Source: Prochlorococcus marinus str. MIT 9313
GTDB taxonomy: Bacteria > Cyanobacteriota > Cyanobacteriia > PCC-6307 > Cyanobiaceae
DNA length: 64,000 bases
Reading direction: 5' to 3'
Assembly (NCBI RefSeq): GCF_000011485.1
Contig: NC_005071.1
Span: forward strand, 620,001-684,000
The position numbers and the translations under genes were made by a program. Every line of letters starts with the position of its first letter. The stretch's first letter is position 1. This document shows positions 39,832 to 56,308 of this stretch, piece after piece. The notes below the pieces were generated by a model. It was not told the origin of the DNA. It was given only the letters and a program-made list of their open reading frames with translations, and ran no database searches.

Positions 39832-40833
39832 TTACGCCCAACGATCCATGATCTGTTTAACAACCACCTGCTCCATTCCTACCTGCAAAACCACCACAAG
39901 TGGCAAAGCCAACAACACCCCTGGTAGACCCAATAAGGCGCCCAAGCTCAGTTGAGCCATTAACGCCACGGTGGGAAGCAGGTTGACCGTACGCCGCAAT
40001 AACAGCGGGGTGAGCAAAAACGCCTCAAGATTCTGCAAAATCAGCCGCAATAGCAGAACTTGCAGCATTAGTAGGGGTGAAACAAGCAGGGCCATGGCCA
40101 ATGGCAGCAGTGAGGCGGCCGTTGGCCCAATGGTGGGGACGAAGGTCAGCAAGCCACAGACCAATGCACTCAATAGGGCCAGAGGAACCTTGAGCAGTGC
40201 AAGCCCTGCCCAAGTGAGCACAAACACGCTGCTGGCTGAGATCGTCATCCCAGCAAGCCAGCCACCAAGAGCCAAACGGCATTGATCAAGCAATTCAGCC
40301 ATCTCCTGTCGCGCAGGCCGAGGCGTTGCAGCAATCACCATTTGGCGATGGGATACAGGGTCTAGCGCTAGCAAGACAGCCAGCAGGCTCATCAACAACA
40401 ACTGAATCAGGCTGTTGGCGGCCCCGCCTGCCACGCCAAGCAATTGCGAGCCCAAGGGTTGGATCCGATCCCAGCTGAACTGTTCGGCAAAAGACTCTTC
40501 CAGATTCATCAGTCGCGGGTTGCTGACCAGCATCGATTTCAGCTTGCTCACCAGGGTGGGTACGAGGTTGCCCAACTCTTGAACCTGGGTGATCAACTCA
40601 GGCACCAGCAGCTGGAAAACCAAGGCACCGCCAAGCAGCAGCACCACCAGCACCACTGCTAGCGAAAGGGGACGAGGCCAGGAGAGGCGGTCCTGAAGTT
40701 TCTCAATTAGCACATCAAGTGCTACTGCTAATACCACTGCTCCAAAGAGCACTAACAACACCCAACGCAGCTGCCAGGTGAGCAAAGCCAGCACCACCAG
40801 AGTGAGTGCGACAAGAAGGGTGCGGGCATTCAT
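39832..40833 (-). CDS. AI-2E family permease (copy 2)
   Basis: 333-residue integral membrane protein of the PerM/YdiK/UPF0118 family, with an N-terminal helical pair (residues about 5-40), a helix near 60-85, a more polar middle section, and four to five C-terminal helices. The family signature GPTAASLLPLAMALL and the C-terminal GVLLALPLVVVLQV are present. Members move small solutes or ions; the name does not prove autoinducer transport. Its start overlaps the stop of the paralogue upstream (ATGA). Confidence 0.85.
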   Translation of the reverse strand: MNARTLLVALTLVVLALLTWQLRWVLLVLFGAVVLAVALDVLIEKLQDRLSWPRPLSLAVVLVVLLLGGALVFQLLVPELITQVQELGNLVPTLVSKLKSMLVSNPRLMNLEESFAEQFSWDRIQPLGSQLLGVAGGAANSLIQLLLMSLLAVLLALDPVSHRQMVIAATPRPARQEMAELLDQCRLALGGWLAGMTISASSVFVLTWAGLALLKVPLALLSALVCGLLTFVPTIGPTAASLLPLAMALLVSPLLMLQVLLLRLILQNLEAFLLTPLLLRRTVNLLPTVALMAQLSLGALLGLPGVLLALPLVVVLQVGMEQVVVKQIMDRWA

Positions 40834-41912
40834 GGCGCCAATCGCTTTTTCTTCCAGGGATCAAGCAAATCGTGGATGACCACCTCGCGAATCAACACTT
40901 GCAGCACGACAGCGAGTGGCAGCGCCAACAGCAGGCCAAGAGGACCAAACACCACTGTGAAGACAAACTGGGCTGTGAGAGTCAGCCCGGGCAACAATTT
41001 CACCTGGTGATGCATCACTGATGGAGTGATCACATAACTTTCCAGGTTCTGAATCACCACATAGAGCCCAAGCACAGCGACTGCTTTCCAGGGTGCATCA
41101 AGCAGCGCTACCGACATCGGAAAGATCGTGCTCAAGGTAGGCCCTACATTTGGGATCACGTTGAGCATCCCAGCAAGCAAGGCATTCGCCATCACCAGCT
41201 TGATCCCAAGTAGTGAAAGGCCGATTGCGGCAAGCAGGGCCACACAAAAGGAACTGATCAGTACACCCACCATCCAGCTGCTCAGCGCATCTCCGCATTG
41301 GCTCAGGATCGAGCGGGCTCGTCGCCTATAAAACGAAGGCAATAACGAGATGGCTACATCTCTGTATGCCGTCGGTTGCACCGCCACCATCAAGCTCATT
41401 GCCAACACAAACAGGAGTTGCACCAAGCCGCTGCCGAGGTTGCCTGCAAGGCCTAGAAGGCCTTGCAGGCCTTCCCTCACTCCTGAGGCCAAGCTTGCAC
41501 CATCTGGCAATGCGTTTAACCCATTTGCAAACAGCTGTTCTTCCCAGCCACCCTTGTTGTTGTCAACTCCGTAGACCATTGCAGAGGTTTGGTTGATGGC
41601 GCCGATGGCCAGCTTCCAGAGTTCCTTCGCTGCTGAAGGAAGTTGTAAAAGCAATTGGTGGAATTGCTCTGTAAAAGGAGGAACCACAATTGCTGTGGCA
41701 GTGCCAACAACAAGGGCAAGAGCGACCAAGCAGATCAGTAAAGCCATGCTGCGAGGCATGGGTTTCCTTGTGCGCAGCTCACCCACCAGAGTGCAGAGAG
41801 CCATGGCAAGAACAATGCCTGCAAAGAGGTGGATCAGCACCTCTCTAAGGCTCCAAAACAGCACACTCGTGGCCATCAGTGCAGCCAGAGCGAGCCATTG
41901 GGAGAATTTCAC
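40830..41912 (-). CDS. AI-2E family permease (copy 1)
   Basis: 360-residue paralogue of the next gene, sharing NVGPTLSTIFPMSVALL and PLGLLLALPLAVVLQVL at matching places and the same helix layout. The two overlapping genes look like an old tandem duplication and may form a heteromer. No dedicated partner protein is nearby. Confidence 0.85.
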   Translation of the reverse strand: MKFSQWLALAALMATSVLFWSLREVLIHLFAGIVLAMALCTLVGELRTRKPMPRSMALLICLVALALVVGTATAIVVPPFTEQFHQLLLQLPSAAKELWKLAIGAINQTSAMVYGVDNNKGGWEEQLFANGLNALPDGASLASGVREGLQGLLGLAGNLGSGLVQLLFVLAMSLMVAVQPTAYRDVAISLLPSFYRRRARSILSQCGDALSSWMVGVLISSFCVALLAAIGLSLLGIKLVMANALLAGMLNVIPNVGPTLSTIFPMSVALLDAPWKAVAVLGLYVVIQNLESYVITPSVMHHQVKLLPGLTLTAQFVFTVVFGPLGLLLALPLAVVLQVLIREVVIHDLLDPWKKKRLAP

Positions 41913-41946
41913 CCGTGTTCAGGCAGCCAGCCTTTGCATTCTCCCC

Positions 41947-42300
41947 TTAGTTTTGGGAGTAGCCCAGACCGTTGCAAGCTGCATAGCGTTTAGCAAATCG
42001 CATGAAGCGTTCAAAATCCGCTTCTGATTTCCAGATGTAGGTGACTTCAAGTGCGCTTGGTTTGCCATTAACAAAACGTGCATTCACCTCACGTGTCACG
42101 AGTTCGCCTTCTTCGTCGATCATGAACATGCCGGTGATACCTGCCCATGTTTCCGGGGCCATGATCTCTGGCTGATCAAAGACAAAAAGAGCTCTGCCGG
42201 TACGGCCGTCACTACTGCGTGTCAGTTTGATGTCAGGAACGACAGGTTCATCAACACCACGTGTGAACTGAATTGCCGCAGTTTTGTTCGCGTTAGCCAT
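41947..42300 (-). CDS. psb28: Photosystem II assembly protein Psb28
   Basis: Small soluble cytoplasm-side factor that binds photosystem II assembly intermediates near CP47 and is absent from the mature complex. The 117-residue product has the family N-terminus [19 protein letters not shown], the core [21 protein letters not shown] and C-terminal [14 protein letters not shown]. Start ATG 42298-42300. Confidence 0.95.
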
Positions 42301-42325
42301 TGATCTCTACGACAAGATATGGATC

Positions 42326-43426
42326 TTACGTTGAGTCCATAACCAGCTGTGGCTTTGGGCTTGATCTCACAAGCTCTCGTTCAATCAACATCTCAGCGGC
42401 TTTGGTTGTGTTCAGTCCGCAAAGATCCACGCTTTGTCTTTGAAGGGTCCTGCTTAGTTCGTAGTCATAGCAACGGTCGTAGTAATCCAACATGGCTCGA
42501 CAGGCTTGGTCCCAGTCCCCAAGAGCGATTGCATCCAGGGCCTGTCGTGTGCGCTGTGGGCCTAAACGGCGGCTGATGCGTTGGGTCGCTTCCTGCAAAG
42601 ACTCACGGCCATGCTGGCCATACACATCAACCAGTTGAGCAACCCGTTCATCAAGTGAACGGTTGATCTCCAGCACTGGTGCCATTTGCATCTGATGGAA
42701 AAGTGCTCGGGGGATTCTGCAGCGACCCACCTGTGAACTTTCCGCTTCCAGCCAGATTTCATCTGCAGAACTGTTTTGACAGCGCTGTAAACATTCGGCA
42801 AGGAGATTTTCGTAATGTTCAGTGCTTGGTTGTGGGGGTAAGCCCAACCCACCAAAGCTGCTGCCCCGATGGTTCGCCAAACCTTCAAGGTTGACGACAG
42901 CGACCCCTCGTTGTGCCATGGCAATGAGTAGATCAGTCTTGCCCGTGCCTGTTCGTCCACCGAGTAATCGCAAAGGCCAGGTTTGCTCAAATTGTTGCAG
43001 CACCCATCGCCGATAGCTCTTGTATCCACCCTCCAGAAGCAAAGGCTTGAGATCCACAAGACCCGCTAGCCAAGCAACACTCGCAGAGCGCATGCCTCCT
43101 CGCCAGCAGTAAATGCGTAGATCAGATGCAGAGGTGTCTTCTGATTCAGTGGTTGGATCTCTGCTGAGATTCACCAGGGCTTCAGCAAGACCTGACAGTT
43201 TTGGGCCTGTGAACTCAAGACCCAGCTTGATCGCTTGCTGACGACCTTTTTTTTTGTAAGTGATGCCGACCGCTGCCCGTTGCTCATCGCTGAAGAGAGC
43301 AAGGTTGATCGCACCTGGCCAATGTCCCTTATTGAATTCAGCTGGGCTGCGAACGTCAACAACAGGACCATTGGCCTGACGGAATCTTTCGATCGAGTAA
43401 GGAGTATGGGTACCCATTCCTGACAT
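42326..43426 (-). CDS. mnmH: tRNA 2-selenouridine/geranylthiouridine synthase
   Basis: Replaces sulfur with selenium at the wobble 2-thiouridine of certain tRNAs, and can geranylate it. The 366-residue product has an N-terminal rhodanese domain with the family's PVVDVRSPAEFNKGHWPGA (about 21-39) and active-site Cys107 in YCWRGGMRS, then a P-loop domain with GGRTGTGKT (156-164). No selenophosphate synthetase gene is in the window. It lies 25 bp upstream of psb28. Confidence 0.92.
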   Translation of the reverse strand: MSGMGTHTPYSIERFRQANGPVVDVRSPAEFNKGHWPGAINLALFSDEQRAAVGITYKKKGRQQAIKLGLEFTGPKLSGLAEALVNLSRDPTTESEDTSASDLRIYCWRGGMRSASVAWLAGLVDLKPLLLEGGYKSYRRWVLQQFEQTWPLRLLGGRTGTGKTDLLIAMAQRGVAVVNLEGLANHRGSSFGGLGLPPQPSTEHYENLLAECLQRCQNSSADEIWLEAESSQVGRCRIPRALFHQMQMAPVLEINRSLDERVAQLVDVYGQHGRESLQEATQRISRRLGPQRTRQALDAIALGDWDQACRAMLDYYDRCYDYELSRTLQRQSVDLCGLNTTKAAEMLIERELVRSSPKPQLVMDST

Positions 43427-43465
43427 AGTGGGCCAGCGGCGAGCCAGAAGAGCCGGTTTCGATCC

Positions 43466-44182
43466 ATGATCTCCGGTCCCCCCCCCTCCACCAACCAGAG
43501 CGTTGAAGAACTACTGGAACGATTCACCAGTGGTTCAAAGCGTCAACGGCTCAGCTTGGTGCCAACGATTGAAGAACGGGCAGAAGAGCTGGCTGCATTA
43601 GCTCAAGCAGCTCTTGCCTCTTTTGACCCAGACGGAGACGACTGGGCTGCAGGATGGATTCTGCAAGTTTTTCAGCGTCATCAGCCGCAGGTTTTACCCA
43701 GCCTGTTGAGCAGTGAGTCGAGTGGCTGGTTCTCGACCCCATCAGCAGTGGGGATCGACTATGAGCCTTTGCAACGTGACCTACTAGCCGAAAACTTTGA
43801 GGAGGCTGATCGCTTCACCAGTGCAACGCTGCGCAAGCTCGCAGGACCTGGAGCCGAGCAGCGCGGTTATGTGTACTTCAGTGAGGTGCATGCGATCAAT
43901 GGCCTCGACCTGGTCACAATCGATCGTCTCTGGACTGCCTATTCACAAGGAAGGTTTGGGTTTACGACCCAAGCGCGCTTGCTGAACGCTCTCGATGGCA
44001 GGTATCACAGCCTTTGGGCTCGTATTGGATGGAAACAGGATGGAACATGGACACGTTATCCAGGCTCCTTTACCTGGTCTCTCTCTGCCCCTGAGGGGCA
44101 TATGCCTTTAATTAATCAGTTACGGGGTGTGCGCTTAATGGATGCGGTGCTGCATCATCCATCACTTGCAGCCCGCCGTTAG
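43466..44182 (+). CDS. GUN4-domain protein
   Basis: 238 residues: a helical N-terminal extension of about 95 residues and a GUN4 tetrapyrrole-binding domain with YEPLQRDLLAENFEEADRFT, the central LVTIDRLWTAYSQGRFGFT and C-terminal APEGHMP. GUN4 binds protoporphyrin IX and Mg-protoporphyrin and stimulates Mg-chelatase. Cyanobacteria can have more than one GUN4-domain protein, so it may be the chelatase activator or a paralogue. It is divergent from mnmH. Confidence 0.85.
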   Translation: MISGPPPSTNQSVEELLERFTSGSKRQRLSLVPTIEERAEELAALAQAALASFDPDGDDWAAGWILQVFQRHQPQVLPSLLSSESSGWFSTPSAVGIDYEPLQRDLLAENFEEADRFTSATLRKLAGPGAEQRGYVYFSEVHAINGLDLVTIDRLWTAYSQGRFGFTTQARLLNALDGRYHSLWARIGWKQDGTWTRYPGSFTWSLSAPEGHMPLINQLRGVRLMDAVLHHPSLAARR

Positions 44183-44246
44183 AGCAGATTTCAGCTTGAG
44201 GCACCGGCCTAGAGCACGCGAACGGTTATGGTCAAAACAGGTCTGA

Positions 44247-44717
44247 ATGGTCCTGATGCCTTCCTGGTCACGGGCAGCTTCTAGGCTTTTATTCAGCGTT
44301 AGCCCCCAGGGGGTGGCCCCGCTGTTTCGTTGGGCTGATTTCATTCTTCCTTCAACCTTGCAGCTCACTCCTTTGCTGGAGATCCTGCTTGAACCTGTTG
44401 CCTGTCAGGACACCAGCTATCGCCTACAGCTGGGATTGCAGGAGGCCTTGGTGAACGCAGTGCAACATGGTAATTGCGGAGATCCAGGCAAATCCCTGCG
44501 AGTTCGTCGAATCTTTACGCCTAACTGGATGATTTGGCAGATCCAGGATGAAGGGATCGGTGTACCACTCAAAGCTCGAGTTGGTTGCCTTCCAGCTCAA
44601 CTCGAGGCCAATAGTGGACGTGGAATGTTTCTGATTTATCAGTGTTTTGATGATGTGCGCTGGAGCCAGCGCGGCAATCGCTTACAACTAGCCTGTCGAC
44701 GTCCCAAAAGCAGTTGA
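44247..44717 (+). CDS. RsbW-like ATP-binding protein (anti-sigma/HATPase_c_2)
   Basis: The 156-residue product has the GHKL ATPase boxes: N-box Glu66 and Asn70 (LQEALVNAVQHGN), G1 DEGIGVP (101-107) and G2 SGRGMFLI (123-130). Single-domain proteins of this type are serine kinases of partner-switching systems or anti-sigma factors. No anti-anti-sigma or PP2C phosphatase gene is adjacent, so its partner is unknown. The true start could be internal, since the first 25 residues are not family-like. Confidence 0.8.
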   Translation: MVLMPSWSRAASRLLFSVSPQGVAPLFRWADFILPSTLQLTPLLEILLEPVACQDTSYRLQLGLQEALVNAVQHGNCGDPGKSLRVRRIFTPNWMIWQIQDEGIGVPLKARVGCLPAQLEANSGRGMFLIYQCFDDVRWSQRGNRLQLACRRPKSS

Positions 44718-45212
44718 GACTGCTGACAGCGTAAAAACTTGAATACTATTAATCATAAGAGCTAATGATTAGAAGCGAAGCGAGGTGCATTTTGAGGTGC
44801 ATTTGCCTTTTAATTTAACAAGAAAGCGGATCAATTCATTGTTTCAATTGACAGTGAAAGTAGTGTCGACATGATTCTCGCTTTTTAATCAGTATTTCAG
44901 CGCTTGAACAGCTTCATTCATCGATAGACCACTGCTACTTGAAGCAGGCCTTGCTTTTGTTAGGCTTAATCGGCAAAAAGTAAAGCAATTATCTCTTCTA
45001 TGATCATTTCCATAGAGTCGTATGAATGCAAAAAGAGCCTAAGCAAAATTTTTATCATTCAGCATGAAATATGGCCTTCATGATTCAATCTGTCAAAGTT
45101 CATCAAAATGTTCCCCTCCATAACATGAGCAAATTGATCAAAGCTTGTTTCATCTTGTTTTCTTCTTTTTAAAAGAGATAAAGGCATCATGCCTGCTGTT
45201 TTATCAAGGTGC
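44718..45212. other. 495-bp AT-rich gap
   Basis: No supported gene. A tandem GAGGTGCATTT(T) repeat is at about 44782-44803. On the minus strand a 14-codon frame follows a strong GGAGGGG Shine-Dalgarno-like stretch around 45075-45120, but it is too short to call. Confidence 0.4.
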
Positions 45213-45614
45213 TCACCTCTCGCTGATGCATTCGTTTTGTTGATGTTGAGATCTCACTGATCGGACCACCTTCGTGACTTGATCAGCATTGACGGTTTTG
45301 ATTACACCAGTATCAATGCAAGCGACCTGAAATAGAGACGGGTCAGGACCTCTAGCTCCAGAGACAATATGAATCACTTCTCCCATCCACCAACTCTCAG
45401 GCGCATGCCGTTGATTGTCTTGAACAATCACCACATCTCCACAGGTAACTGCAAGGAAGATTGATTCCTCTGGCAAAAAGCCTGGTCCTACTTCTGCGGC
45501 CCTCGCTAGCGACGCCAACCTGCTCCATGCTGATGCATCTGTTCTAGCGATGGCTATCGCGCTTTGCCTGGTTGAGTGATTGCGGGTTGCTTCGATTGCC
45601 GCAGGCCCAGCCAT
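45213..45614 (-). CDS. DUF3104-type protein
   Basis: 133 residues. The second half (about 52-120) matches a family I recall as DUF3104, mostly in marine picocyanobacteria: IFLAVTCGDVVIVQD, a Trp-rich SWWMGEVIHIV, and CIDTGVIKTVNADQVTKVV. It looks like an SH3-like small beta-barrel. The first 50 residues are Ala/Arg-rich and may not belong to the conserved core. Function unknown. Confidence 0.75.
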   Translation of the reverse strand: MAGPAAIEATRNHSTRQSAIAIARTDASAWSRLASLARAAEVGPGFLPEESIFLAVTCGDVVIVQDNQRHAPESWWMGEVIHIVSGARGPDPSLFQVACIDTGVIKTVNADQVTKVVRSVRSQHQQNECISER

Positions 45615-45698
45615 CGGCCTGAATGGGAATTGCTGATGAAAGTTTGAGGGTGAAGCCGAACCATTGCTGCAAAGGCCATTCCTGTTGCAAGAACCGTC

Positions 45699-45953
45699 TT
45701 AATCCCTGCCGCAACCAGGAGCTTTCAGTTCGCGCCTTAGCCAACGCAGGCTTTGATCGGTAAGGGCCTCAACATCAGAGCGTTCTCCACCTTGAAGCAG
45801 CTGGACTAAGGCTCCAGCAAGAAGCTCTGCAGCTCTGCGGTCGGCATCTCCTTTTTGTTGATGCCAGTTGTGATCATTGAGGCTTAATTGAGCATGAAGA
45901 TCCATGGCCTGGCGTTGCACCTCAATTGGCCACTCAGCTTGTTTGATTCCCAT
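45699..45953 (-). CDS. Conserved small helical protein (DUF6439-like)
   Basis: From ATG 45951-45953 the product is 84 residues, helical and charged, with HNWHQQKGDADRRAAELLAG in the middle and SLRWLRRELKAPGC near the end. I recall a similar short family in cyanobacteria, with DUF6439 as a tentative name. The frame continues 32 codons upstream, but that part overlaps the divergent region and looks non-coding. Function unknown. Confidence 0.6.
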   Translation of the reverse strand: MGIKQAEWPIEVQRQAMDLHAQLSLNDHNWHQQKGDADRRAAELLAGALVQLLQGGERSDVEALTDQSLRWLRRELKAPGCGRD

Positions 45954-46007
45954 CTTTATCAGCGGTTCACTTGGTCTATTTTGCTTGTGATAGTAAAAGC
46001 CGTCTGA

Positions 46008-46280
46008 ATGGTGACACGGCCACGTCAGGTTCAACTCCGTTGGCTGCATGGGCTGTCAAGGTTGGTGCTTTTGGGGCAGCGCCAGGACAGACTGAAACGA
46101 TCTTCCAAGATGCTGGCAGCAAGACGGAGCAAACAGAGGAGTCAGCTCGCGCGTCAGATACTGGAAATACCTTCAGAGCAATGGTTGCGGCCTAAGTGGT
46201 CTGGCGAGTGGATTTGGCGGGCCTTGCGTTGGGGTGGACCTGGAGTTGCCCTTGGCTGGTGGCTCAGCCAGAGCGGGTAA
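46008..46280 (+). CDS. Small basic Trp-rich protein
   Basis: 90 residues from ATG 46008. Very basic N-terminal two thirds (LKRSSKMLAARRSKQRSQLA), then a Trp-rich end (EWIWRALRWGGPGVALGWWL) that could contact a membrane. It is divergent from the DUF6439-like gene with 54 bp between starts. No family recognised; the composition and tidy position favour a real gene. Confidence 0.5.
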   Translation: MVTRPRQVQLRWLHGLSRLVLLGQRQDRLKRSSKMLAARRSKQRSQLARQILEIPSEQWLRPKWSGEWIWRALRWGGPGVALGWWLSQSG

Positions 46281-46297
46281 TTGCGTTTAAATTCAGA

Positions 46298-46618
46298 TCA
46301 AACGGCTGTTAGTAGATCCTGCTCGACTACTACAAGTGACTTAGAGATATCTGGAATGGCATGCTCCAGAGGAGGCAGTGGCATCTCGCTAGGGTTTGAC
46401 GTCTGTTGACCGCGCATCCAAGCATTACGAAGAGATTGCCGTCGTTGATCTTCTGCAAGGACCAGTCGGTCTGCAGCGGCTGATGGGCTTTCACCGTGAA
46501 GTAATGCCGTTCGCAGGCAAATTCCAAACCCTTGAGCCTCGACTTGCACTTTGCCTTCCATTAAGACAATTTGGAAGGTCCAGCCCTGTAACCATCGCAG
46601 TTGAAAGGGATTACTCAC
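46298..46618 (-). CDS. Conserved-looking small protein, unknown
   Basis: 106 residues from a GTG at 46616-46618. The first half looks like beta-strands (FQLRWLQGWTFQIVLMEGKV), then Ala/Arg-rich helices (SAAADRLVLAEDQRRQSLRN) and a Pro-rich, acidic end. No known domain recognised. It fills the space between two clearer genes and has normal codon composition. Confidence 0.55.
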   Translation of the reverse strand: MSNPFQLRWLQGWTFQIVLMEGKVQVEAQGFGICLRTALLHGESPSAAADRLVLAEDQRRQSLRNAWMRGQQTSNPSEMPLPPLEHAIPDISKSLVVVEQDLLTAV

Positions 46619-46714
46619 GTTGTCCCTTCAGGAAAAAATACACCGGATTTTGCATCTAACAAGAGCACCCTATTTGTGAGACTCGATTGAACTACCGAGT
46701 GTCAGGAAACCCGC

Positions 46715-47788
46715 TTAAGCGTTGTTTTGGAGCGGTTTGAAAGCAGTCCAAACTCGTGTCATGAAGTGAGACTCGGCAGCAATGCCCTCAAAACCGCTTG
46801 CTTGGAAACGTGCCTCAATGTTGTCGGAGATGTAATCGCGGTAGTACGGCTCATGAAATATCCGCCGGAAGTTCTCCATGGCAGGGATGAACTTGGGCGA
46901 GTCTTCCATTTGTACAGAATCTGCTAGGACCAAAACTCCGCCTGGTTCGAGCACGCGCCAGCATTCGTCAAGAACATTTTGCCGGGCCGAGCTCGGTAAT
47001 TCGTGAAACAGGAAAACGCACGTGATGCCTTGCACACTTTGATCAGCAAACGGCAGCTGTTCAGCATTACCGCGCACCAGTTGCGCGAGTTCTCCATTGC
47101 GGCTGTTGAGCGAGCGGCTGGCCTGACGTAAATAAGCTGCTGATAGATCCAACCCCAGCAGTTCAACTTTGGGTAGGGCGCTGCGAATCTGTTGCAGGGT
47201 TCGACCGGTTCCGGTTGCGACATCCAACACCCGAAGACTGGCGGAGCTGCGGCTTTGGAAGCGTTTCAGCCCGCGCTTGAGAGGCGCTAAAACCCTGCGC
47301 CGCATGGAGTCTGCAGTGCCATTAAAGAGAATCTCTACCTGCAGGTCATAAAGTTCTGCAGAGTGGTCGCTTAGATAGCCATCGGTTTGGTGATGAAAGT
47401 TTTGCAGGTAGTAATCGGGATAGATCTCTGAATCGACATCGTTTGGCAGATCATGAATATTGCGTGCCTTGCGCCGCTGCCATGTCGAGGGAAGATCTAA
47501 CCAGACCAAGGGGTAACGGCTCGCCCATTCCAACCACGGAGCTTCAAAGAGCTGCGTTTTTGGATAAATGCCTTGTTCAGCTTCATGCCAGTCAAGTTGC
47601 TCGAGAGCTGACATTGAGCTGCGCAGCTCCATCAGCAATTCTCGCGGAATCGGTTCAATGCTTGGCATCGCATCAGGTGCCAGCAATTCCATCAGCTTGG
47701 TGCTCAATTCCTTGTGGGCCAGGCCCGCAAGAGTCTTGCTCTGCTGCAGGGTTTGATAAGCGAACTTGGTGAGGCTTGGCTGCGCCAT
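46715..47788 (-). CDS. SAM-dependent methyltransferase (class I)
   Basis: 357 residues: an N-terminal helical region of about 170 residues without known domain, then a Rossmann methyltransferase domain with motif I VLDVATGTGRTLQQI, the acidic end of strand 2 in LLGLDLSAAYL, NAEQLPFADQSVQGITCVF and the post-motif ECWRVLEPGGVLVLADS. It resembles the UbiE/Methyltransf_11 group. The long N-terminus and conserved C-terminal TRVWTAFKP are seen in cyanobacterial members of unknown substrate. Confidence 0.85.
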   Translation of the reverse strand: MAQPSLTKFAYQTLQQSKTLAGLAHKELSTKLMELLAPDAMPSIEPIPRELLMELRSSMSALEQLDWHEAEQGIYPKTQLFEAPWLEWASRYPLVWLDLPSTWQRRKARNIHDLPNDVDSEIYPDYYLQNFHHQTDGYLSDHSAELYDLQVEILFNGTADSMRRRVLAPLKRGLKRFQSRSSASLRVLDVATGTGRTLQQIRSALPKVELLGLDLSAAYLRQASRSLNSRNGELAQLVRGNAEQLPFADQSVQGITCVFLFHELPSSARQNVLDECWRVLEPGGVLVLADSVQMEDSPKFIPAMENFRRIFHEPYYRDYISDNIEARFQASGFEGIAAESHFMTRVWTAFKPLQNNA

Positions 47789-48312
47789 GAACCTGATTTG
47801 GGTGTGCTCTATGTCAGCGGATCAGCCTTGCAATTGCTGAGATCTCAGATTATAAGCCTTGCCTATTCAATTAAGGATCTATGACAATGCATATGAAATG
47901 CTTCGCGAAGCTTTCGCTTGTGATTGCTTTAAGCCTAATTTCTTGTTGATTAATCCAACAGATCAGGATCCAGTTACGAAGAATGACTAATGGCTAAAGG
48001 CCTAATCGTAAGGATGTTTCGTATTAATCATTGGAAGCATCTATTGATTTTTTTTGCTAATCAATTGGCCTTTGTGATTGATGCTATTAGAAAGAAGATT
48101 GGCGATCTAAACGCATCTTAAAGGCACAGGTCTTGATATTAAAGAATAATGCAAGTCAAAGGCTATATCAATAATGTCTGTGATGCATTGCAGTGAATAG
48201 CTTTGTAAGCTTATATAGAGCATTCGGTTGATATTAGAAGGAATGAAGTGATGAGCCAAATCGCGAAAGGTTCTTTGGCTAGATCAGTTTAAATTGCTAC
48301 TCGTCCACAATT
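47789..48312. other. 524-bp AT-rich gap with a truncated signal-peptide frame
   Basis: A 22-residue plus-strand frame (47881-47949) reads as a complete lipoprotein-like signal sequence, KCFAKLSLVIALSLISC, and stops directly after the lipobox cysteine. It is probably the remnant of a lipoprotein gene. Nothing else is recognisable. Confidence 0.4.
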
Positions 48313-48552
48313 TTATAGCCAGGGACGCTCATCTGCAGTTTGATTATTGAGCACTCCATCAGCCTGCTGAAGGTCTTTACTTTCTAAAGCCTGAGCTTGT
48401 TTTTTGAGGTTGTCCACTGTGATAGAGAATCCAGCTTCTTTGGCAAGCACCACAAACCAATGAGTGTCAACACGTTGTGCTTCAAGCTTCTGCTGAAGCA
48501 CCGGATCTGATGCAACTTTGGAAAGCAACGCTTTAAGATCCTCCTCTGGCAT
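48313..48552 (-). CDS. Nif11-type leader-like peptide, orphan
   Basis: From ATG 48550-48552 the product is 79 residues. Residues 1-50 match the Nif11 domain used as the leader of many cyanobacterial RiPP precursors, including prochlorosins: PEEDLKALLSKVASDPVLQ, then LAKEAGFSITVDNLK. In typical precursors the leader ends with a Gly-Gly site and a Cys-containing core; here the corresponding stretch is LQQADGVLNNQTADERPWL, without GG and without Cys, so it is not an obvious lanthipeptide precursor. No LanM-type gene is nearby. A longer in-frame start at 48630 adds 26 residues that do not match the family. Confidence 0.75.
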   Translation of the reverse strand: MPEEDLKALLSKVASDPVLQQKLEAQRVDTHWFVVLAKEAGFSITVDNLKKQAQALESKDLQQADGVLNNQTADERPWL

Positions 48553-49747
48553 GCTGATCAATGAATGAAGAAGAAATGATTTTACTATAAATGGGAAATA
48601 CTCTCGAAGAGAATCATATAAGTTGTTCATGTTTACAGAGAATTTTGCTATTGATATCTTGCTTGGCTGGCCGATGTGCTTAGAAATAGTGCAAACCTGC
48701 TTTGCTTAGCTTCCTGCGAAGCTCTTTCATTGAGCTTCTGTGGAGTTCATACCTTTTTCAATGTTGAAGACTGTCCTGAAATAGGTCTCCTTGAATGAAA
48801 GAACACCATTGGGGCTGATTTCCTATTCTGGTGGTTGTATGAGAAACGTTTGCAGTTAGGCGCTTGTGGATCTTGTGGCTAACCATTCTCGCGCATTGAG
48901 AAATTGGCTGAGGTGATGCATCCGACCAATCTTCAGCTTTGAAGGTGGCATATGGAGACGAAACAGGCGCCATGAATTAAAAGCGGTACACATGTACTAG
49001 CGTGCCAGTGTCGCCTTGTCAACTCCAGTCATCACTTTGCTTTCAAGCCAGATCTGAATGGCTACACAAGCCCGTCAGTGCAGACGCCCCCCTTGCTGAT
49101 TTCATGAGAGAGGCCATCTCTTGCAGAGGGGCATCCCACGGGCCCCATGGATCAAGCTGGCAAGTCAGATCGGCAGTTGACTGGCTAATACCTTTGGGGA
49201 TCAAAACCTACTTGAGCTGCTAAGCCGAAATAGAAATCATCGAAGGGAACCTTTTAGCTGCCTTGCGCAACGATGAATGCAGCGGCATAGGCTGAAAATG
49301 CCATTGCTATCTATGCCTTCTTCCTGCTCAACTTAATAATCTCAACCCGAACTAATCACCGTGACTTCAGATAACATTAGTTTCTCTTCATTGAGGATCG
49401 GTAAAGTGCACTCTGCAGCGATAACGAGTGTTGCCAAGCCCGGCTTCGATTGTGGTGCACTTCTCCCCACTGATCGTTGCATCTGCATGTATTTGCAGCC
49501 AGTTTCGCTCGATGGCGTTGTTCCGACTCCAATTGATTCAGCGGTAATACTGCCGGCCCAACTCAATTGGACAACGAGCATAATGATTGAAAAACAGTTG
49601 CCAACAGTGGAGCCTTCATAGTGAGATGAAAGGTTGCAAAATCAGTCTTTTGATTGAGGACATTATTCCTTTTCTTGACTCGCCAACACGAATTCTAAGT
49701 AGTATCAATAACCTCGCGAAGAGATCATCCAAGCCTTAATCTTTGCA
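48553..49747. other. 1.2-kb gap with a LexA-type palindrome, no confident gene
   Basis: Several short frames exist on both strands (minus 48758-48973; plus 49002-49223; plus 49361-49621; minus 49342-49581), none resembling known families. The main feature is the palindrome at 48985-48998, lying between the divergent starts of the first two frames. The stretch is of mixed composition. Confidence 0.45.
48985..48998. promoter_or_regulatory. Candidate LexA (SOS) box
   Basis: GGTACACATGTACT fits the cyanobacterial LexA consensus I recall, RGTACNNNDGTWCB, at every position and is nearly a perfect palindrome. It sits 12 bp upstream of a minus-strand frame start (48973) and 4 bp upstream of a plus-strand GTG (49002). 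Confidence 0.5.
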
Positions 49748-50008
49748 TCACTCAATTGGCCCTTTAATGTTGCCGCCGGCATCTGAACGCCGCCGCGAGA
49801 CCCCATATCGGCGCCAAAGCGAAGGACTGCAAAACAGCACAATCACAGCAAGGCAGTGATGGCGAACAGCAAAAATCAACTGTGTAAAGGTGAAATGCTC
49901 CCAGAGCAAGAGAAACTCTGTTCGTAAATCCCAGAGAGACAGACCCAAAAGAAGAACGGGCAACCAACGATCGCCAGATAAGCCACGGGAGCGGGCCCTT
50001 TCAGCCAT
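49748..50008 (-). CDS. Small membrane protein after secF
   Basis: 86 residues with two hydrophobic stretches (WLPVLLLGLSLWDL and LIFAVRHHCLAVIVLFC) and a basic, Gly-rich C-terminus. Its start overlaps the secF end by 8 bp, so it is probably the last gene of the secD-secF operon. I recall small genes in this place in related genomes but no function. It could accompany SecDF, which is inference from position. Confidence 0.65.
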   Translation of the reverse strand: MAERARSRGLSGDRWLPVLLLGLSLWDLRTEFLLLWEHFTFTQLIFAVRHHCLAVIVLFCSPSLWRRYGVSRRRSDAGGNIKGPIE

Positions 50009-51080
50009 CTGAAATCACATCTCCTCCCTCAATCGGAGGCTGGGAGGAAGACAACGGCGGTTGTGGAGCAGCAGCAGGGGCTGATAAAGGCCCTGCCGGA
50101 GGACCACTGCCTTGCCAGAGGCTCAACAATGAAGGGGCTAGAGCAATACTCGACCAGCTACCAACCACCACTCCAAGAGCAAGTGCAACCGCAAACCAGT
50201 AGAGCGTTGCACCGCCAAAGAGGATCAGAGCGAGCAGAGGCAGCAGGGTCGTACCGCTGGTGTAGAGGGTCCTTGTGAGGGTCGCGGATACGGCACGATC
50301 AACCTGTTCCGTCAGTGGCAGTGAGTTGTCTTCACGACTGCGCTCACGAATCCGGTCAAAGACCACCACAGTGTCATTGACCGAGTAGCCGGCAATGGTG
50401 AGCAGCGCTACCGCGAAGAGGCTATCCACCTCAAGCGTTATCAACAGGCCCAGCCAAGCGAATATCCCACAAACAATGATCACGTCATGGGCAAGGGCCA
50501 CAAGGGCCAGAAGGGCATATCGACGGTCGTAACGGAGGCTGATGTAGATAGCGATTCCCGTGAACGCCACCAAAAGAGAAATCAAGCTGCTGCGCAGCAA
50601 TTGGCCTCCCAGACTTGGGCCAATGGTGTCGACCGATTGACCACCACTCTGAAACGGACCCGCTACAGGATCCATTGCCTTGATGACAGCTTGCCCCTGA
50701 GCAGCAGAGAGGAAGGGCAACCTCAAGACTAGAGACTGACCCCCATCAAGAAGCTGAACCCTGGCTCGTGAGAGGTTTGGAGCAACCTTGTCTTTGTCAG
50801 CGGGTAACTCAAGAGCCCCCAAAAGCTCTTCAACACTTGTGGTTTTCAGCGACTGACAGCTCTTGCTACAGCTCCGCTCCAGCTGGATTTGAGTTCCACC
50901 AGTGAAGTCAAGTCCTGGACGAAGGGGAGCACCAATCGAAGGGTTCAGCCAACAGAGGATCAATCCCACCAAACTCAAAACCACAAACAGGCCTGAGATT
51001 CCCCAAACTCGTCGTCGTTGACGACAAAGTTCAAATCTCAGTGGGCGTTGACGAGTTCCTGAAGATGATGAAACAGCCAT
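50001..51080 (-). CDS. secF: Protein translocase subunit SecF
   Basis: Partner of SecD that uses proton motive force to help release translocated proteins. The 359-residue product has the first helix (about 30-48), LDFTGGTQIQLE, a periplasmic domain, and five helices with the RND-type AYSVNDTVVVFDRIRERSRE. The C-terminal 45 residues form a Pro/Ala/Ser-rich tail that is unusually long. It lies 3 bp after secD. Confidence 0.95.
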   Translation of the reverse strand: MAVSSSSGTRQRPLRFELCRQRRRVWGISGLFVVLSLVGLILCWLNPSIGAPLRPGLDFTGGTQIQLERSCSKSCQSLKTTSVEELLGALELPADKDKVAPNLSRARVQLLDGGQSLVLRLPFLSAAQGQAVIKAMDPVAGPFQSGGQSVDTIGPSLGGQLLRSSLISLLVAFTGIAIYISLRYDRRYALLALVALAHDVIIVCGIFAWLGLLITLEVDSLFAVALLTIAGYSVNDTVVVFDRIRERSREDNSLPLTEQVDRAVSATLTRTLYTSGTTLLPLLALILFGGATLYWFAVALALGVVVGSWSSIALAPSLLSLWQGSGPPAGPLSAPAAAPQPPLSSSQPPIEGGDVISDG

Positions 51081-51083
51081 GGA

Positions 51084-52571
51084 TCAGGCGAGAGAAGAAG
51101 GCAACTGTTTGGCAGGCAAAAAGTTGGTAGGTCGCCTCAAAGCCTGATAGCCCATCAAAAAACGCAGCAGAGTGCGAGTGCAGCTCAATGCCGTAAACAA
51201 ACTGAGCACAACACCGATGCCGAGGGTGGCGGCAAAACCTTTAACCAAACCCGTACCCAGAAAAAAGAGCGCTGCGCAACTAATCAGAGTGGTGAGATGG
51301 CCGTCAACGATCGACGACAAAGCCTGGGAAAATCCAGTCTCGATCGAGCGAATCAAGGTGTTTCCACGCCGCAATTCATCTTTGACACGCTCAAAGATCA
51401 GCACATTGGCATCCACTGCCATGCCAATACTGAGGATGAAACCCGCAATCCCAGGCAGGGTAAGGATGACAGGAATCAGAGCATACATAGCGAGATTGAA
51501 CAGGGCATAAAGACTCAATGCCAACACCGCCACCAAGCCCGCAAGGCGATAAGCAACCACCATGAAAACAGCCACCAAGGCGAGACCAGAGAGCGCTGCG
51601 ATCAAGCTGCGGCGAATGTTTTCAGCACCAAGGGTGGGACCAATGGTTCGAACCTCGAGAATTTCTACTGGTAATGGCAACGAACCACCTCGTAACTGAA
51701 CTTCCAGGTCGCGGGCATCTTCAGCATTGAAATTACCGCTGATCGTGGCCGCACCACCAGTAATGCCAGCGGCTCTGAACTGTTCCCCGACGCTGGCTTC
51801 ACTGATCGACCTTCCATCAAGAACGATGCCAAGTAGACGACCTGTGCCAGCAATTGATTGTGTTAGCTCGGCGAATTGATCTCCGCCTTCTCGGTTGAAG
51901 CTAAGTGTCACCTCCCAGCTGTCAGGAACGTTCTGCTGTTGCTGACGCCCAGCTGTGACCAGATCCTTCCCGGTTAATGACGTGGGCTCGAAGAGTTCAG
52001 CGATCTTGATGCTGACTTTCTCATTCAACTGTTCCAGCTGCTCGACCTCACTGCCAACACTGCCTTGCAAACCAAAGGCCTGCTGCGCTTCAACAAGTTG
52101 CTGTTTGTCGAGTTCATCATCAGAGGGAGACTCTCCGGATATCGCACGCTCCTGCTTGGACTTGAGAATGCTCTCTACCTGTCGTTTTAGGCGCTGAAGG
52201 CCGCGAACCTCCTGTTCTGTGCCAGGTTTTTGAGCTCGAAACTCAAGTAAGGCCGTCTCGCCAAGCACCTTGGCAGCCCTGGTGGGATCCTGTTCTCCTG
52301 GAAGCTGCAACACCAGTTGATTGTCACCAATGGTCTGCAGGGTGGATTCGGCAACACCCAAGCCATTGACGCGACGATCCAAAACAGCTTTGACCGCCTC
52401 TAGCTGCTCCGATTTCACGCGAGTGATCTCACCAGCGGGCTGCACTTCAAGAGTGAGCTGACTGCCACCACGAAGATCAAGGCCCAACTCAAGCGGAAAG
52501 CTTGCAGTGACAGAACCTGCCGCAATGGCAAGAGCAAGAATGAGCGCAAACCAGCCTTGTTGACGTGCCAT
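51084..52571 (-). CDS. secD: Protein translocase subunit SecD
   Basis: Proton-driven accessory subunit of the Sec translocon. From the ATG 52569-52571 it is 495 residues: a first helix, LGLDLRGGSQLTLEVQ, a large periplasmic P1 domain with VVLQLPGEQDP, and helices with GMAVDANVLIFERVKDELRRG near residue 390. The TTG one codon upstream is the alternative start. It directly follows pdhB on the same strand. Confidence 0.95.
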   Translation of the reverse strand: MARQQGWFALILALAIAAGSVTASFPLELGLDLRGGSQLTLEVQPAGEITRVKSEQLEAVKAVLDRRVNGLGVAESTLQTIGDNQLVLQLPGEQDPTRAAKVLGETALLEFRAQKPGTEQEVRGLQRLKRQVESILKSKQERAISGESPSDDELDKQQLVEAQQAFGLQGSVGSEVEQLEQLNEKVSIKIAELFEPTSLTGKDLVTAGRQQQQNVPDSWEVTLSFNREGGDQFAELTQSIAGTGRLLGIVLDGRSISEASVGEQFRAAGITGGAATISGNFNAEDARDLEVQLRGGSLPLPVEILEVRTIGPTLGAENIRRSLIAALSGLALVAVFMVVAYRLAGLVAVLALSLYALFNLAMYALIPVILTLPGIAGFILSIGMAVDANVLIFERVKDELRRGNTLIRSIETGFSQALSSIVDGHLTTLISCAALFFLGTGLVKGFAATLGIGVVLSLFTALSCTRTLLRFLMGYQALRRPTNFLPAKQLPSSLA

Positions 52572-52574
52572 CAA

Positions 52575-53558
52575 TCAAAGCCCCTTAAGAACAATCTGCT
52601 TAGCCGCTTCAACAATCTGATGAGGCTGAATGATCGTGAAATTCTCCAATTTGCCGTTATATGGAGTGGGAATGTCCTGACTGGAGAGGCGAATTGGGCG
52701 AGCATCGAGTTCGTCAAAACACTGCTCAGTAATCAGCGCAATCAACTCAGCACCAATCCCACCAGTTTTCATACACTCTTCAACCACAATCACCCGATGG
52801 GTTTTACGGATGGAGCGAACAATGGTCTCCATATCGAAGGGCTTGAGACTAATCAAATCGATCAATTCCACATCGATGCCGTCTGCCTCCAACTGTTCAA
52901 CAGCCTTGAGACAGTGATGACGCATACGGGAATAGGTGAGGATCGTGACGTCTTTACCCTCACGAACCAGATCTGCTTGATCTAGGGCACAGACATAATC
53001 ACCGTCTGGGAGCTCCTCAATCAGGTTGTAGAGCAGCACATGCTCGAAAAAGAGAACTGGATTGTTGTCTCGGATCGCGGCTTTCATCAAGCCCTTGGCA
53101 TTGGTTGGCGTGCTGCAAGCAACGATTTTGATCCCAGGCACAGCGTGAAAATAGGCCTCAAGTCGCTGACTATGTTCAGCACCGAGTTGGCGCCCCACAC
53201 CACCAGGCCCACGCACCACGGTGGGAATTGTGAAATTTCCGCCACTGGTGTAACGAAGCATTCCCATGTTGTTGGAGATCTGGTTGAAAGCAAGCAGCAG
53301 AAAACCCATGTTCATGCCCTCCACAATCGGGCGTAGGCCAGTCATGGCGGCGCCAACGGCCATACCCGTAAAACTGTTCTCGGCAATCGGTGTATCCAAC
53401 ACCCGCAACTCGCCATATTTCTCGTAGAGATCTTTGGTGACCTTGTAGGAGCCGCCGTATTGGCCGACGTCCTCTCCCATCACACAAACATGCGAATCTC
53501 TGGCCATCTCTTCATCGATGGCATCTCGAAGAGCATTAAAGAGAAGCGTCCCTGACAC
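52575..53558 (-). CDS. pdhB: Pyruvate dehydrogenase E1 component beta subunit
   Basis: With the alpha subunit decarboxylates pyruvate using thiamine diphosphate, feeding acetyl-CoA to fatty acid synthesis. The 327-residue product has [34 protein letters not shown], the TPP-proximal [20 protein letters not shown], and the C-terminal [19 protein letters not shown]. The start is GTG at 53556-53558. The alpha subunit gene is elsewhere, as usual in cyanobacteria. Confidence 0.95.
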
Positions 53559-53620
53559 GTTTTCGTTGCAATCCCGGCCATGCCGGTGGAAGAGGCCAAG
53601 CTATCTCAGCCTGAGCAGCA

Positions 53621-53716
53621 TTAGCCTCCTGCGGCAAATGCTGAAAGCAGCAAAACGGACAGCAACAGACCAGGAGAGAGCAACAGCACCAACTGACCAA
53701 GATCGTGAGGCGTCAT
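53621..53716 (-). CDS. 31-residue single-helix membrane peptide
   Basis: Starts at ATG 53714-53716 and ends at TAA 53621-53623. After TPHDLGQ it is one hydrophobic helix (LVLLLSPGLLLSVLLLSAFA) and ends AGG. AGGA lies 10 bases upstream of the start. Its size and shape are like the small subunits of photosystems and cytochrome b6f, but it matches none that I know (not PsbX, PsbY, PetN, PsaM or PsaI). It lies alone between pdhB and the DUF3082 gene. Confidence 0.55.
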   Translation of the reverse strand: MTPHDLGQLVLLLSPGLLLSVLLLSAFAAGG

Positions 53717-53761
53717 CTGTAGAAGTCCTGAATCGGCAATCAGGCTGTCAACCCACAAAAG

Positions 53762-54115
53762 CTAGGCAGCATCTGGCTCCTTGCCAGCAAACAAACTGCG
53801 AATAAACACAAGGGTTAGTCCAAAACCAATGAAGGCAAAGCTGAATGTGGCTAGAAAACACATGCCGATGATCAGGGTTTTAAACCCCGAAGCAATGCTT
53901 TGGGCAATCGCAGAGCTGTAATTAGGCGAATGAAGAGCGAAATAAGTCACTGTCTTCTGGCTCAAAATCAGGCAAAGCCAGGCAAAAAGTCCACTGGTGA
54001 TCGCCCCAGAAAGAAAACTGAGCGGGCCCTTACGTGGTGTCGCAGGCGTCTCTGCCAAGGTGTTGGATGACTCTGCATCTGCCTTCTCGAAAGAGCTGTT
54101 TTTGGAATCGCTCAT
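53762..54115 (-). CDS. DUF3082 family membrane protein
   Basis: 117 residues: a Ser/Asp/Ala-rich soluble N-terminus (about 1-32) and two membrane helices (about 35-60 and 80-108), with the conserved [19 protein letters not shown] between. Widely found in cyanobacteria, function unknown. Its start overlaps the ispE stop (ATGA). Confidence 0.85.
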
Positions 54116-55071
54116 GCTTCCAGTTTGATGCCTTCACAGCGGAACGCGCAGCACCAACTGCTTAAACCAGCTGCGGCGAAGGCAGGCTGTTGGAGCTGAA
54201 GTGCAGCCTGAGCTGAAGCAACGTCAGCAAAAAGGGCAAAACAGCTTGGACCAGATCCACTCATCGATACTGCAAGAGAACCAGGCAAATCAGTGAGCAA
54301 CTTCAATGTGGTTTGCACAGCCGAAACTTCGGGTGCAACAACCTCCTGAAGGTCGTTGCGCAGAGGTGGCGGATCATCAGCCCGTAAAGGATTCAGCCAA
54401 GAAGATTCTCTGAGCTGCTGACGACGTTGCTCAAAATCAGATTCCTTTGAAAGATAACGACTACTGAAAAGTTCCTTACAGCGTCCATAAGCCCAGGGGG
54501 TTGAAACGCTCACTGATGGATCCTTCACCAACACCACGGCCATTGATGCTTTCATCGCTTGTAGCGATTCCAACCTTTCCCCACGGCCGAAACACAATTG
54601 GCTTCCACCTGCCAGGCAAAAGGGCATGTCGGAGCCAAGCTCAGCCGCAAAACCTTCAAGTTGACCCTGAGAAAAATTGAGATTCCAGAGACCGTTTAAC
54701 CCCACCAGTGTTGCTGCACCATCACTTGAGCCGCCCGCAAGACCAGCTCCAATTGGGATGCGTTTTTGCAATTCAATCGCGGCACCAAGGTCAGAGAACC
54801 CTGAGCGCTCGCGTAATAAATGCGCAGCTCGCACGATCAAATTGTCGCCAGCAGTGCTGAGGCTGGAATCATCGCAGCGAAGGCTGATGCTGCCATCAGC
54901 CGTATTGCGGAAATGAAGTTGATCAGCGAGTTCGATGCTCTGCATCACCATCGCTAGCTCATGAAAACCATCAGACCTCAGGCCAAGCACCTCAAGATGG
55001 AGATTGATCTTGGCTGGCGCCGAGACGCTAACCAGATGCTCTGAAGCAGCTGAAGGGTTAGATATGCTCAT
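54112..55071 (-). CDS. ispE: 4-diphosphocytidyl-2-C-methyl-D-erythritol kinase
   Basis: GHMP kinase of the MEP isoprenoid pathway. The 319-residue product has [19 protein letters not shown] near the N-terminus, the ATP loop [17 protein letters not shown] near residues 105-121, and the GHMP C-terminal motif [14 protein letters not shown]. It overlaps ksgA upstream and DUF3082 downstream by 4 bp each, making a tightly coupled ksgA-ispE-DUF3082 operon. Confidence 0.95.
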
Positions 55072-55910
55072 GGCTCAGGGTCTACTAGATCCGCCCGATT
55101 CAAACCCCTCGCCAATTCCACCCAAGTGGCAGGGGACAGTTCTTGGGGGCGTTGCTGAAGGCTGATGCCAAGATCATCAGCAAGAGCATTCAGTTCAGCA
55201 GCAGGAAGAACCTTGGCAAGAGTGTTGCGCAGCATCTTGCGCCTGGCCAAAAAAGCCTGACGCAGCAAAGACTCAACACGTTTGGCGAGCAGTGGCTCAA
55301 GGCGCTGTTCAGGAGCAAGAGGTTCAATCAAGATGACCTCAGAATGAACTTTCGGCGGCGGTTTAAAAGAGCGCGGCGGCACTGGGCAAACAGTTGTGCA
55401 ACGAGCGAGCAACTGCAGGCGCACGCTTAGAGCACTAAAACAGCTCTGCCCGGGCAAGGCACGAATCCGTTGAGCGACTTCCTTTTGCAAAAGAAGCACA
55501 AGGCGTTGATAGGGATGATCAACAGGTCGATCCAAGCGACCGAGAAGACGCTCAAGCAGAGGACCGGTGATGTTATAGGGAATATTGGCCACCACTTTGG
55601 TCGCAGCACGGCCATCAGCAAGAGTCAATGGAACAGACAACACATCACCTTCTTGCAAGCTGAAGCGGGCTTGATCCGCAAAACGCTGCTTCAACCCAGA
55701 GACCAGATCGCGATCAAGTTCAACAGCATGAACAGCAGAGGCAGAAGAGGCCAGCAACCTTTCAGTGAGTGCTCCACGACCAGGACCTACCTCCAGCAGA
55801 CGATCATCTGGTTGAACATCAGCTGCATCGAGAATCTGAGTCAACACAGCGGCATCGATTAGCCAGTGTTGAGCAAAGCGCTTGCGAGCGTGATGTCCGG
55901 AAAAGGCCAT
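55068..55910 (-). CDS. rsmA: 16S rRNA dimethyladenosine transferase
   Basis: Dimethylates two adjacent adenosines near the 3' end of 16S rRNA. The 280-residue product has the AdoMet motif [23 protein letters not shown], and the catalytic [17 protein letters not shown]. The C-terminal helical domain is complete. Also named ksgA. Confidence 0.95.
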
Positions 55911-55949
55911 CCCTCAACTTTGCACCAATCTGTATAGAGGGCGACGCAA

Positions 55950-56308
55950 TTGATTGAAGATCAAAAAAAGCTGCAGACAAAACTCGGAGTCAAACTCGCT
56001 GTTCCAATCAAAAGCGGCGATAGATCCCTGATTGTTCCAAGTCTGCGCACTGCATGGATTCTTGATTGGCATCAAAACAACTCAGCTCAAACAATTGGCT
56101 TCATCTATAGACCGACAACACCCTTTCCTGCTCATCCCACCAAGACAATCAAAATGGAGTGCTTTTGGAATTCGGGCTCGATTACACCACTAACAACATT
56201 GGCTCCACATGATTCAAGGTCTATGCACGGGGTGGCGTTGAAATCTGGGATTCATCCAACCGAAACATCGATTGGAGAGCTTCTGCTGGTTTTACCGTCC
56301 AATTCTGA
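55950..56308 (+). pseudogene. Broken C-terminal end of an autotransporter-type beta-barrel gene
   Basis: Two frames joined give the C-terminus of an outer-membrane beta-barrel. The first frame (from 55950) has LGVKLAVPIKSGDRSLIVPS and TAWILDWHQNN, typical of autotransporter barrels. Near an A4 run at 56151-56154 the sense shifts by one base to NGVLLEFGLDYTTNNIGST. There an in-frame TGA at 56210-56212 replaces an expected TGG, and it continues FKVYARGGVEIWDSSNRNI to a barrel-like end RASAGFTVQF and stop. The passenger and most of the barrel are absent, since ksgA begins directly upstream. The domain assignment is pattern recognition, not a search. Confidence 0.6.

Follow-up and report, generated by a model that had tools for sequence, protein, structure and literature searches.

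A Nif11 protein of Prochlorococcus marinus MIT9313 with a degenerate double-glycine region and a cysteine-free tail

Prochlorococcus marinus MIT9313 is a marine cyanobacterium with about thirty cut-and-modified peptides, the prochlorosins, whose ProcA precursors carry a Nif11 leader and are substrates of ProcM. In the logos of the available part of PMC10783134, the leader and the double Gly of these precursors are constant, and the core is variable. The N11P family profile, TIGR03798, ends at a cleavage motif, "usually Gly-Gly", which marks the end of family similarity (Haft et al., 2010, PMC2887384, available text). Cutting at such sites is described for LahT150 in the available sections of PMC6363468: the enzyme cleaves after GG, GA, or GS, its pocket tapers near the cut site, accounting for the small residues there, and Leu-12 and Leu-7 serve as docking residues for the C39 (PCAT) peptidase. 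In the same sections, Lys or Asp is strongly negative at -7 and produces non-substrates when placed at -4. The corresponding domain of MIT9313 is reported there as showing no activity for those authors, LahT150 being an active stand-in.

Nif11 small proteins without a double Gly have also been reported in marine picocyanobacteria, namely group F, whose members end in GEYH/N (PMC10783134), and Unk10 of the CA4 island (PMC3877281), and both sources describe these proteins as having no known function. In MIT9313, nif11-domain paralogs are found in an island near 912 kb, where nitrogen stress changes the expression of four of five nif11 genes (PMC2784084, available part), a response that has no bearing on the gene described below. 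That gene lies at 48313-48552 of the window, the 64,000-nucleotide stretch of contig NC_005071.1 that was analyzed, and its product retains the guiding front half of a precursor but has neither the site for cutting nor the half that would become the finished peptide, both apparently lost.

The reading frame and its degenerate cleavage region

The peptide and its parts are as follows.

48313-48552, minus strand: 79-aa Nif11 ORF (PF07862/TIGR03798), from profile matches and ORF translation; residues 1-49, Nif11 domain; residues 56-67, degenerate double-Gly region; residues 68-79, Cys-free tail
48352-48387, minus strand: codons 56-67, LESKDLQQADGV, the degenerate double-Gly stretch, from alignment with ProcA leaders, with coordinates derived from the ORF frame
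48313-48342, minus strand: last nine codons, QTADERPWL, and the stop, with all 30 bases unchanged in MIT 0701

Curated cut-offs were used for both family profiles (23.8 bits for PF07862, 32.3 bits for TIGR03798). PF07862 matched residues 1-49 at 54.2 bits (E 1.8e-14) over all 48 of its positions, and TIGR03798 matched residues 1-66 at 72.8 bits (E 2e-20) over positions 1-67 of 68. The original prediction, made from the DNA letters and a list of open frames, that the first 50 or so residues are a Nif11 leader is borne out by both matches, and the PF07862 score, well over its cut-off, rules out a profile miss. An in-frame start farther upstream, at 48630, would allow a longer product and could be taken as a sign that the frame is spurious or wrongly annotated. 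We regard that explanation as very improbable, given the two E values, the existence of a full-length ortholog in strain MIT 0701, and the interruption there of the upstream extension (89 aa open, compared to 130 aa in the window). Because the upstream frame is broken in MIT 0701, the ATG at 48552 (minus strand) is likely to be the true start. The structure model of the 79-residue protein was poor (mean pLDDT 60.4), no evidence for expression of the gene was found, and promoter and terminator scans nearby returned 2 and 2 sites, compared to 1.3 and 1.1 in shuffled sequence.

No GG, GA, GS, or Cys occurs anywhere in the 79 residues, and after residue 66 there is in both strains no Cys, no Ser, and a single Thr, so that the Cys and Ser/Thr following GG in a prochlorosin core are not present. 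The tail had been predicted to lack a Gly-Gly site and cysteine, and this absence was confirmed, but a degenerate form of the site can still be recognized. When aligned to the LSDDELESVAGG region of ProcA leaders, LESKDLQQADGV required no gaps, with Leu-12, Leu-7, and Gly-2 retained and Gly-1 lost; the remaining positions read were Asp at -8, Ala at -4, and Val at -1. The same stretch in the MIT 0701 ortholog is LESKDLQQANGE, with Glu at -1, and the GG, GA, or GS of TIGR03798 is therefore replaced by GV in MIT9313 and by GE in MIT 0701. The two C39 docking residues are present in both strains as L56 and L61, and position -4, where the C39 peptidase is described as taking Val, Leu, or Ile, is Ala64 in both, a residue absent from the -4 variants described in the available sections of PMC6363468. 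We infer that the protein would escape cutting by a LahT150-like enzyme, yet might still dock to it.

Conservation in MIT 0701 and the surrounding DNA

The single full-length relative among the genome contigs searched was found in MIT 0701 (94% identity, residues 1-79 of 79). Like the MIT9313 protein, this syntenic, full-length ortholog has neither GG nor Cys, and a fresh frameshift, named in advance as a result that would count against the original prediction, is thereby excluded, as judged from the sole ortholog found. In a search at E 1e-6, full-length relatives were present in 2 of the 201 family genomes searched, its own genome counted, and the next matches scored at most 46.4 bits. When 37 lower-scoring Nif11 loci were read in other genomes, 30 had GG, GA, or GS where a site would be expected, 4 had broken frames, and 3 (L058, L065, and L074) had none. 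L065 (G192:C1:1656752-1656943), from another genus, has VAGR in place of VAGG and a Cys-free tail, possibly a parallel loss of the site.

Gene order is shared with MIT 0701 from a downstream methyltransferase gene into secD. Two neighboring frames are referred to below.

48758-48973, minus strand: upstream neighbor, a conserved ORF of 71 aa with no match in Pfam, separated from the Nif11 gene by 205 bases and not part of the peptide
46715-47788, minus strand: methyltransferase-domain protein, the downstream neighbor, used as a synteny anchor

Between the two strains, the ORF differed at 11 of 240 bases, compared to 242 of 1498 in putatively non-coding flanks from which two conserved ORFs had been excluded, a 3.5-fold lower divergence (Fisher 2e-7), and none of 83 overlapping 240-base flank windows was as low as the ORF, although the lowest window equals the divergence of the Nif11 gene if an 86-aa ORF beside secF is counted as flank. 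That ORF (49748-50008, minus strand) overlaps the end of secF by its first 8 bases and differs from MIT 0701 at 14 of 261 bases. The pN/pS ratio was 0.23 for the whole Nif11 ORF and 0.09 for codons 1-66. When the 11 changes were placed at random, a mean of 7.3 amino-acid changes resulted, compared to the 5 observed, and 0.11 of the trials gave 5 or fewer; selection at the protein level is suggested by these values, not proven. Constraint on single residues could not be judged, because there are just two orthologs and these are 94% identical.

The differences were not spread evenly. Codons 64-70, at the former junction, held 5 of the 11 base differences (Fisher 0.001, or 0.046 after correction for a free choice of 21-base stretch). 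Of the five residues that differ between the two proteins, four (65, 67, 68, and 70) fall in these codons, and the other is residue 18. This appears to reverse the prochlorosin pattern, in that here the junction varies, as judged from two sequences. The codons for QTADERPWL and the stop showed no difference at any of their 30 bases (at a 14.6% rate, 0.009 would be expected, for a stretch picked after looking).

The unchanged end raises the possibility that the gene is still the precursor of a Cys-free peptide, unmodified or modified differently, with another protease cutting near residue 66 and releasing a C-terminal peptide that ends in QTADERPWL. The TIGR03798 match extends into the cleavage region, as such a precursor would have it, and in one other Nif11 gene of the genome, at 1017264, GG is present and Cys is missing beyond residue 55, so Cys-free cores do exist in MIT9313. 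However, the residue at -1 differs between the strains (Val or Glu) and falls within the densest cluster of differences, while reported cutting follows GG, GA, or GS in a pocket that tapers to the cut site (PMC6363468, available sections). With one Thr and no Ser, the tail also offers little to modify, and since the DNA just beyond the stop is itself conserved with MIT 0701 (92% over 48260-48319), the identity of the tail may not concern a peptide at all. Pfam found no RiPP-modifying enzyme among the four neighboring ORFs tested, the methyltransferase being arguable. On balance, we consider a Cys-free precursor unlikely, and the earlier suggestion of a substrate for a different modifying enzyme ranks behind that of an adapted leader.

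The gene had also been described as isolated between two AT-rich gaps. This holds on the downstream side, where GC is 34-37% (45% over the gene itself), but the upstream side has 39-47% GC, and the gap there contains the conserved 71-aa ORF. Matches to that ORF occur in 86 of the 201 family genomes, its own included, its frame is also intact in G003 and G004, and it probably represents an unrecognized small protein family of marine picocyanobacteria.

In G003 (78% complete) and G004 (85%), matches to the methyltransferase (85 and 84% identity, respectively) and to the 71-aa ORF are both present, spaced ∼430 and ∼370 bases apart, compared to ∼970 bases in MIT9313, and there is no Nif11 gene at this site in either. 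On the side occupied in MIT9313 by secD/secF, these two genomes carry a 499-aa ORF (L096, 442-1941, plus strand; L097, 1315-2814, plus strand), a putative glutamine synthetase. Neither the Nif11 gene nor the methyltransferase was found in G002 (74% complete). From this pattern, a gain in the MIT9313/MIT 0701 line cannot be told apart from a loss in the others. Insertion marks near the gene were limited to short, imperfect repeats, with no tRNA in 40000-56000. A phage-borne origin found no support: none of the 25 pattern matches in viral contigs was a relative, and nothing matched when the protein was searched against phages.

The other Nif11 genes of MIT9313

The MIT9313 contig (2,410,873 bases) was scanned with PF07862, and residues 56-75 of the ORF at each match were scored for a GG or GA site. 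The 39 stretches that matched, several of them near 912 kb, comprised 30 with such a site and 9 without, the gene at 48313-48552 included, so that the gene described as an orphan has counterparts in its own genome. All but one of the 30 have Cys after residue 55. The exception (L018, G000:C1:1017264-1017401) is a procA-type gene with GG present and a core without Cys. As regards the processing machinery, the genome has one LANC_like match, indicating one LanM-type enzyme (G000, 280201-281235), nearly 390 kb from the Nif11 gene, and two C39 peptidase matches. G002 has two LANC_like matches; none was found in G003 or G004, at 78 and 85% completeness. The Nif11 gene is present in two genomes with a LanM-type gene and absent from the site in the two where none was found, an association confounded with lineage and with incomplete genomes.

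Reciprocal best hits against the 23 Nif11 matches of MIT 0701 separated the two kinds of gene. Eight of the nine without GG or GA, our gene among them, had full-length reciprocal best hits at 77-95% identity, compared to 4 of the 30 GG/GA-type genes, none of them full length on both sides; the nearest was the gene at 274859, with 79 of its 81 residues matched at 76%. The gene at 48313-48552 therefore behaves, in its sequence, like the conserved GG-less Nif11 proteins. The MIT 0701 contigs also contain a 166-aa ORF (L146, 387-884, minus strand) with two tandem Nif11 units followed by SGG and a Gly-rich, Cys-free tail.

The ninth GG-less gene (L085, G000:C1:1043870-1044007) has a procA-like leader and a decayed look, and it lacked a reciprocal best hit among the MIT 0701 matches. 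Decay of precursors thus occurs in this genome, and the clustering of differences at the former junction would fit a decaying prochlorosin precursor that has lost its site and core and is drifting. The gene at 48313-48552, though, is intact in both strains, has a reciprocal best hit where the decayed copy has none, and diverges 3.5 times less than its flanks. These points disfavor the earlier suggestion of a decayed precursor, which we regard as rather improbable and retain in view of the two orthologs and the weak amino-acid test (0.11).

The best-scoring paralog in the genome was 48% identical over residues 1-70. A tree was built from 85 Nif11 rows cut to 67 residues, leaving aside a nested start, both cupin fusions, and any row shorter than 55 aa in MIT 0701 or 60 aa elsewhere. 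In it, the MIT9313 and MIT 0701 rows paired at 89/73; their placement with the gene at 1209605 had a support of 58/85, and the tree does not settle their origin. Among the eight GG-less proteins scanned with TIGR03798 (all except the cupin fusion at 515490), the match reached furthest in the 48313-48552 protein, to position 67 of 68, and ended at 50-64 in the other seven.

A leader probably kept whole and its known counterparts

We favor, with moderate confidence, the interpretation that the product is an intact Nif11 protein, related to a double-Gly RiPP leader by descent or by common ancestry and no longer subject to processing. Its basis is the Nif11 domain, the missing Gly-1 and Cys core in both orthologs, the conservation specific to the ORF, and the change at the junction. 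Because it is kept intact in the sister strain MIT 0701, the protein is probably used whole instead of decaying. Of the three options that accompanied the original prediction, a leader adapted to another role fits best, given that conservation is specific to the ORF and that change is concentrated at the former junction. The protein would be produced and would remain whole in the cytoplasm, where a helical leader surface, including the segment with Leu-12 and Leu-7, could dock to a partner protein. The prochlorosin machinery, in the form of either ProcM or the C39 peptidase transporter, is one candidate for this partner among others, to which the protein could bind while escaping cleavage. Were this so, the uncleavable protein might act as a decoy leader, docking ProcM or the transporter-peptidase via Leu-12/Leu-7 and throttling or tuning the processing of the ∼thirty prochlorosin precursors. 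We consider a decoy role quite doubtful, the whole of the evidence for it being the two retained Leu residues and the lineage-confounded co-occurrence with LanM.

If a retired leader has been kept whole, the gene would illustrate how a RiPP precursor can become a stand-alone small protein, and docking on the prochlorosin machinery, if true, would make it a built-in regulator of a system whose own function is still a puzzle. Otherwise, it is one more Nif11 small protein without an assigned role.

Compared with ProcA precursors, the protein shares the Nif11 leader, Leu-12, Leu-7, and an acidic residue at -8, but it has no GG and no Cys core, it combines a slowly changing body with a fast junction, and it has a full-length ortholog in MIT 0701. 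Its score places it well within the TIGR03798 N11P family, from which it differs in lacking the cleavage motif. With the GG-less Nif11 small proteins, it shares the N-terminal Nif11 domain, the absence of a double Gly, and full-length conservation between strains; this strain-conserved kind makes up 8 of the 39 Nif11 stretches of MIT9313, our gene included, and one of them, at 1682283, ends in GEYN. It differs from them in its QTADERPWL tail, unlike the other tails read here, in a cleavage region nearer to that of GG-type leaders, and in the confinement of full-length relatives to the two family genomes noted above. Marine picocyanobacteria were already known to have GG-less Nif11 proteins, and this gene, which may itself appear in the tables of PMC10783134, is a modest variant within an established family.
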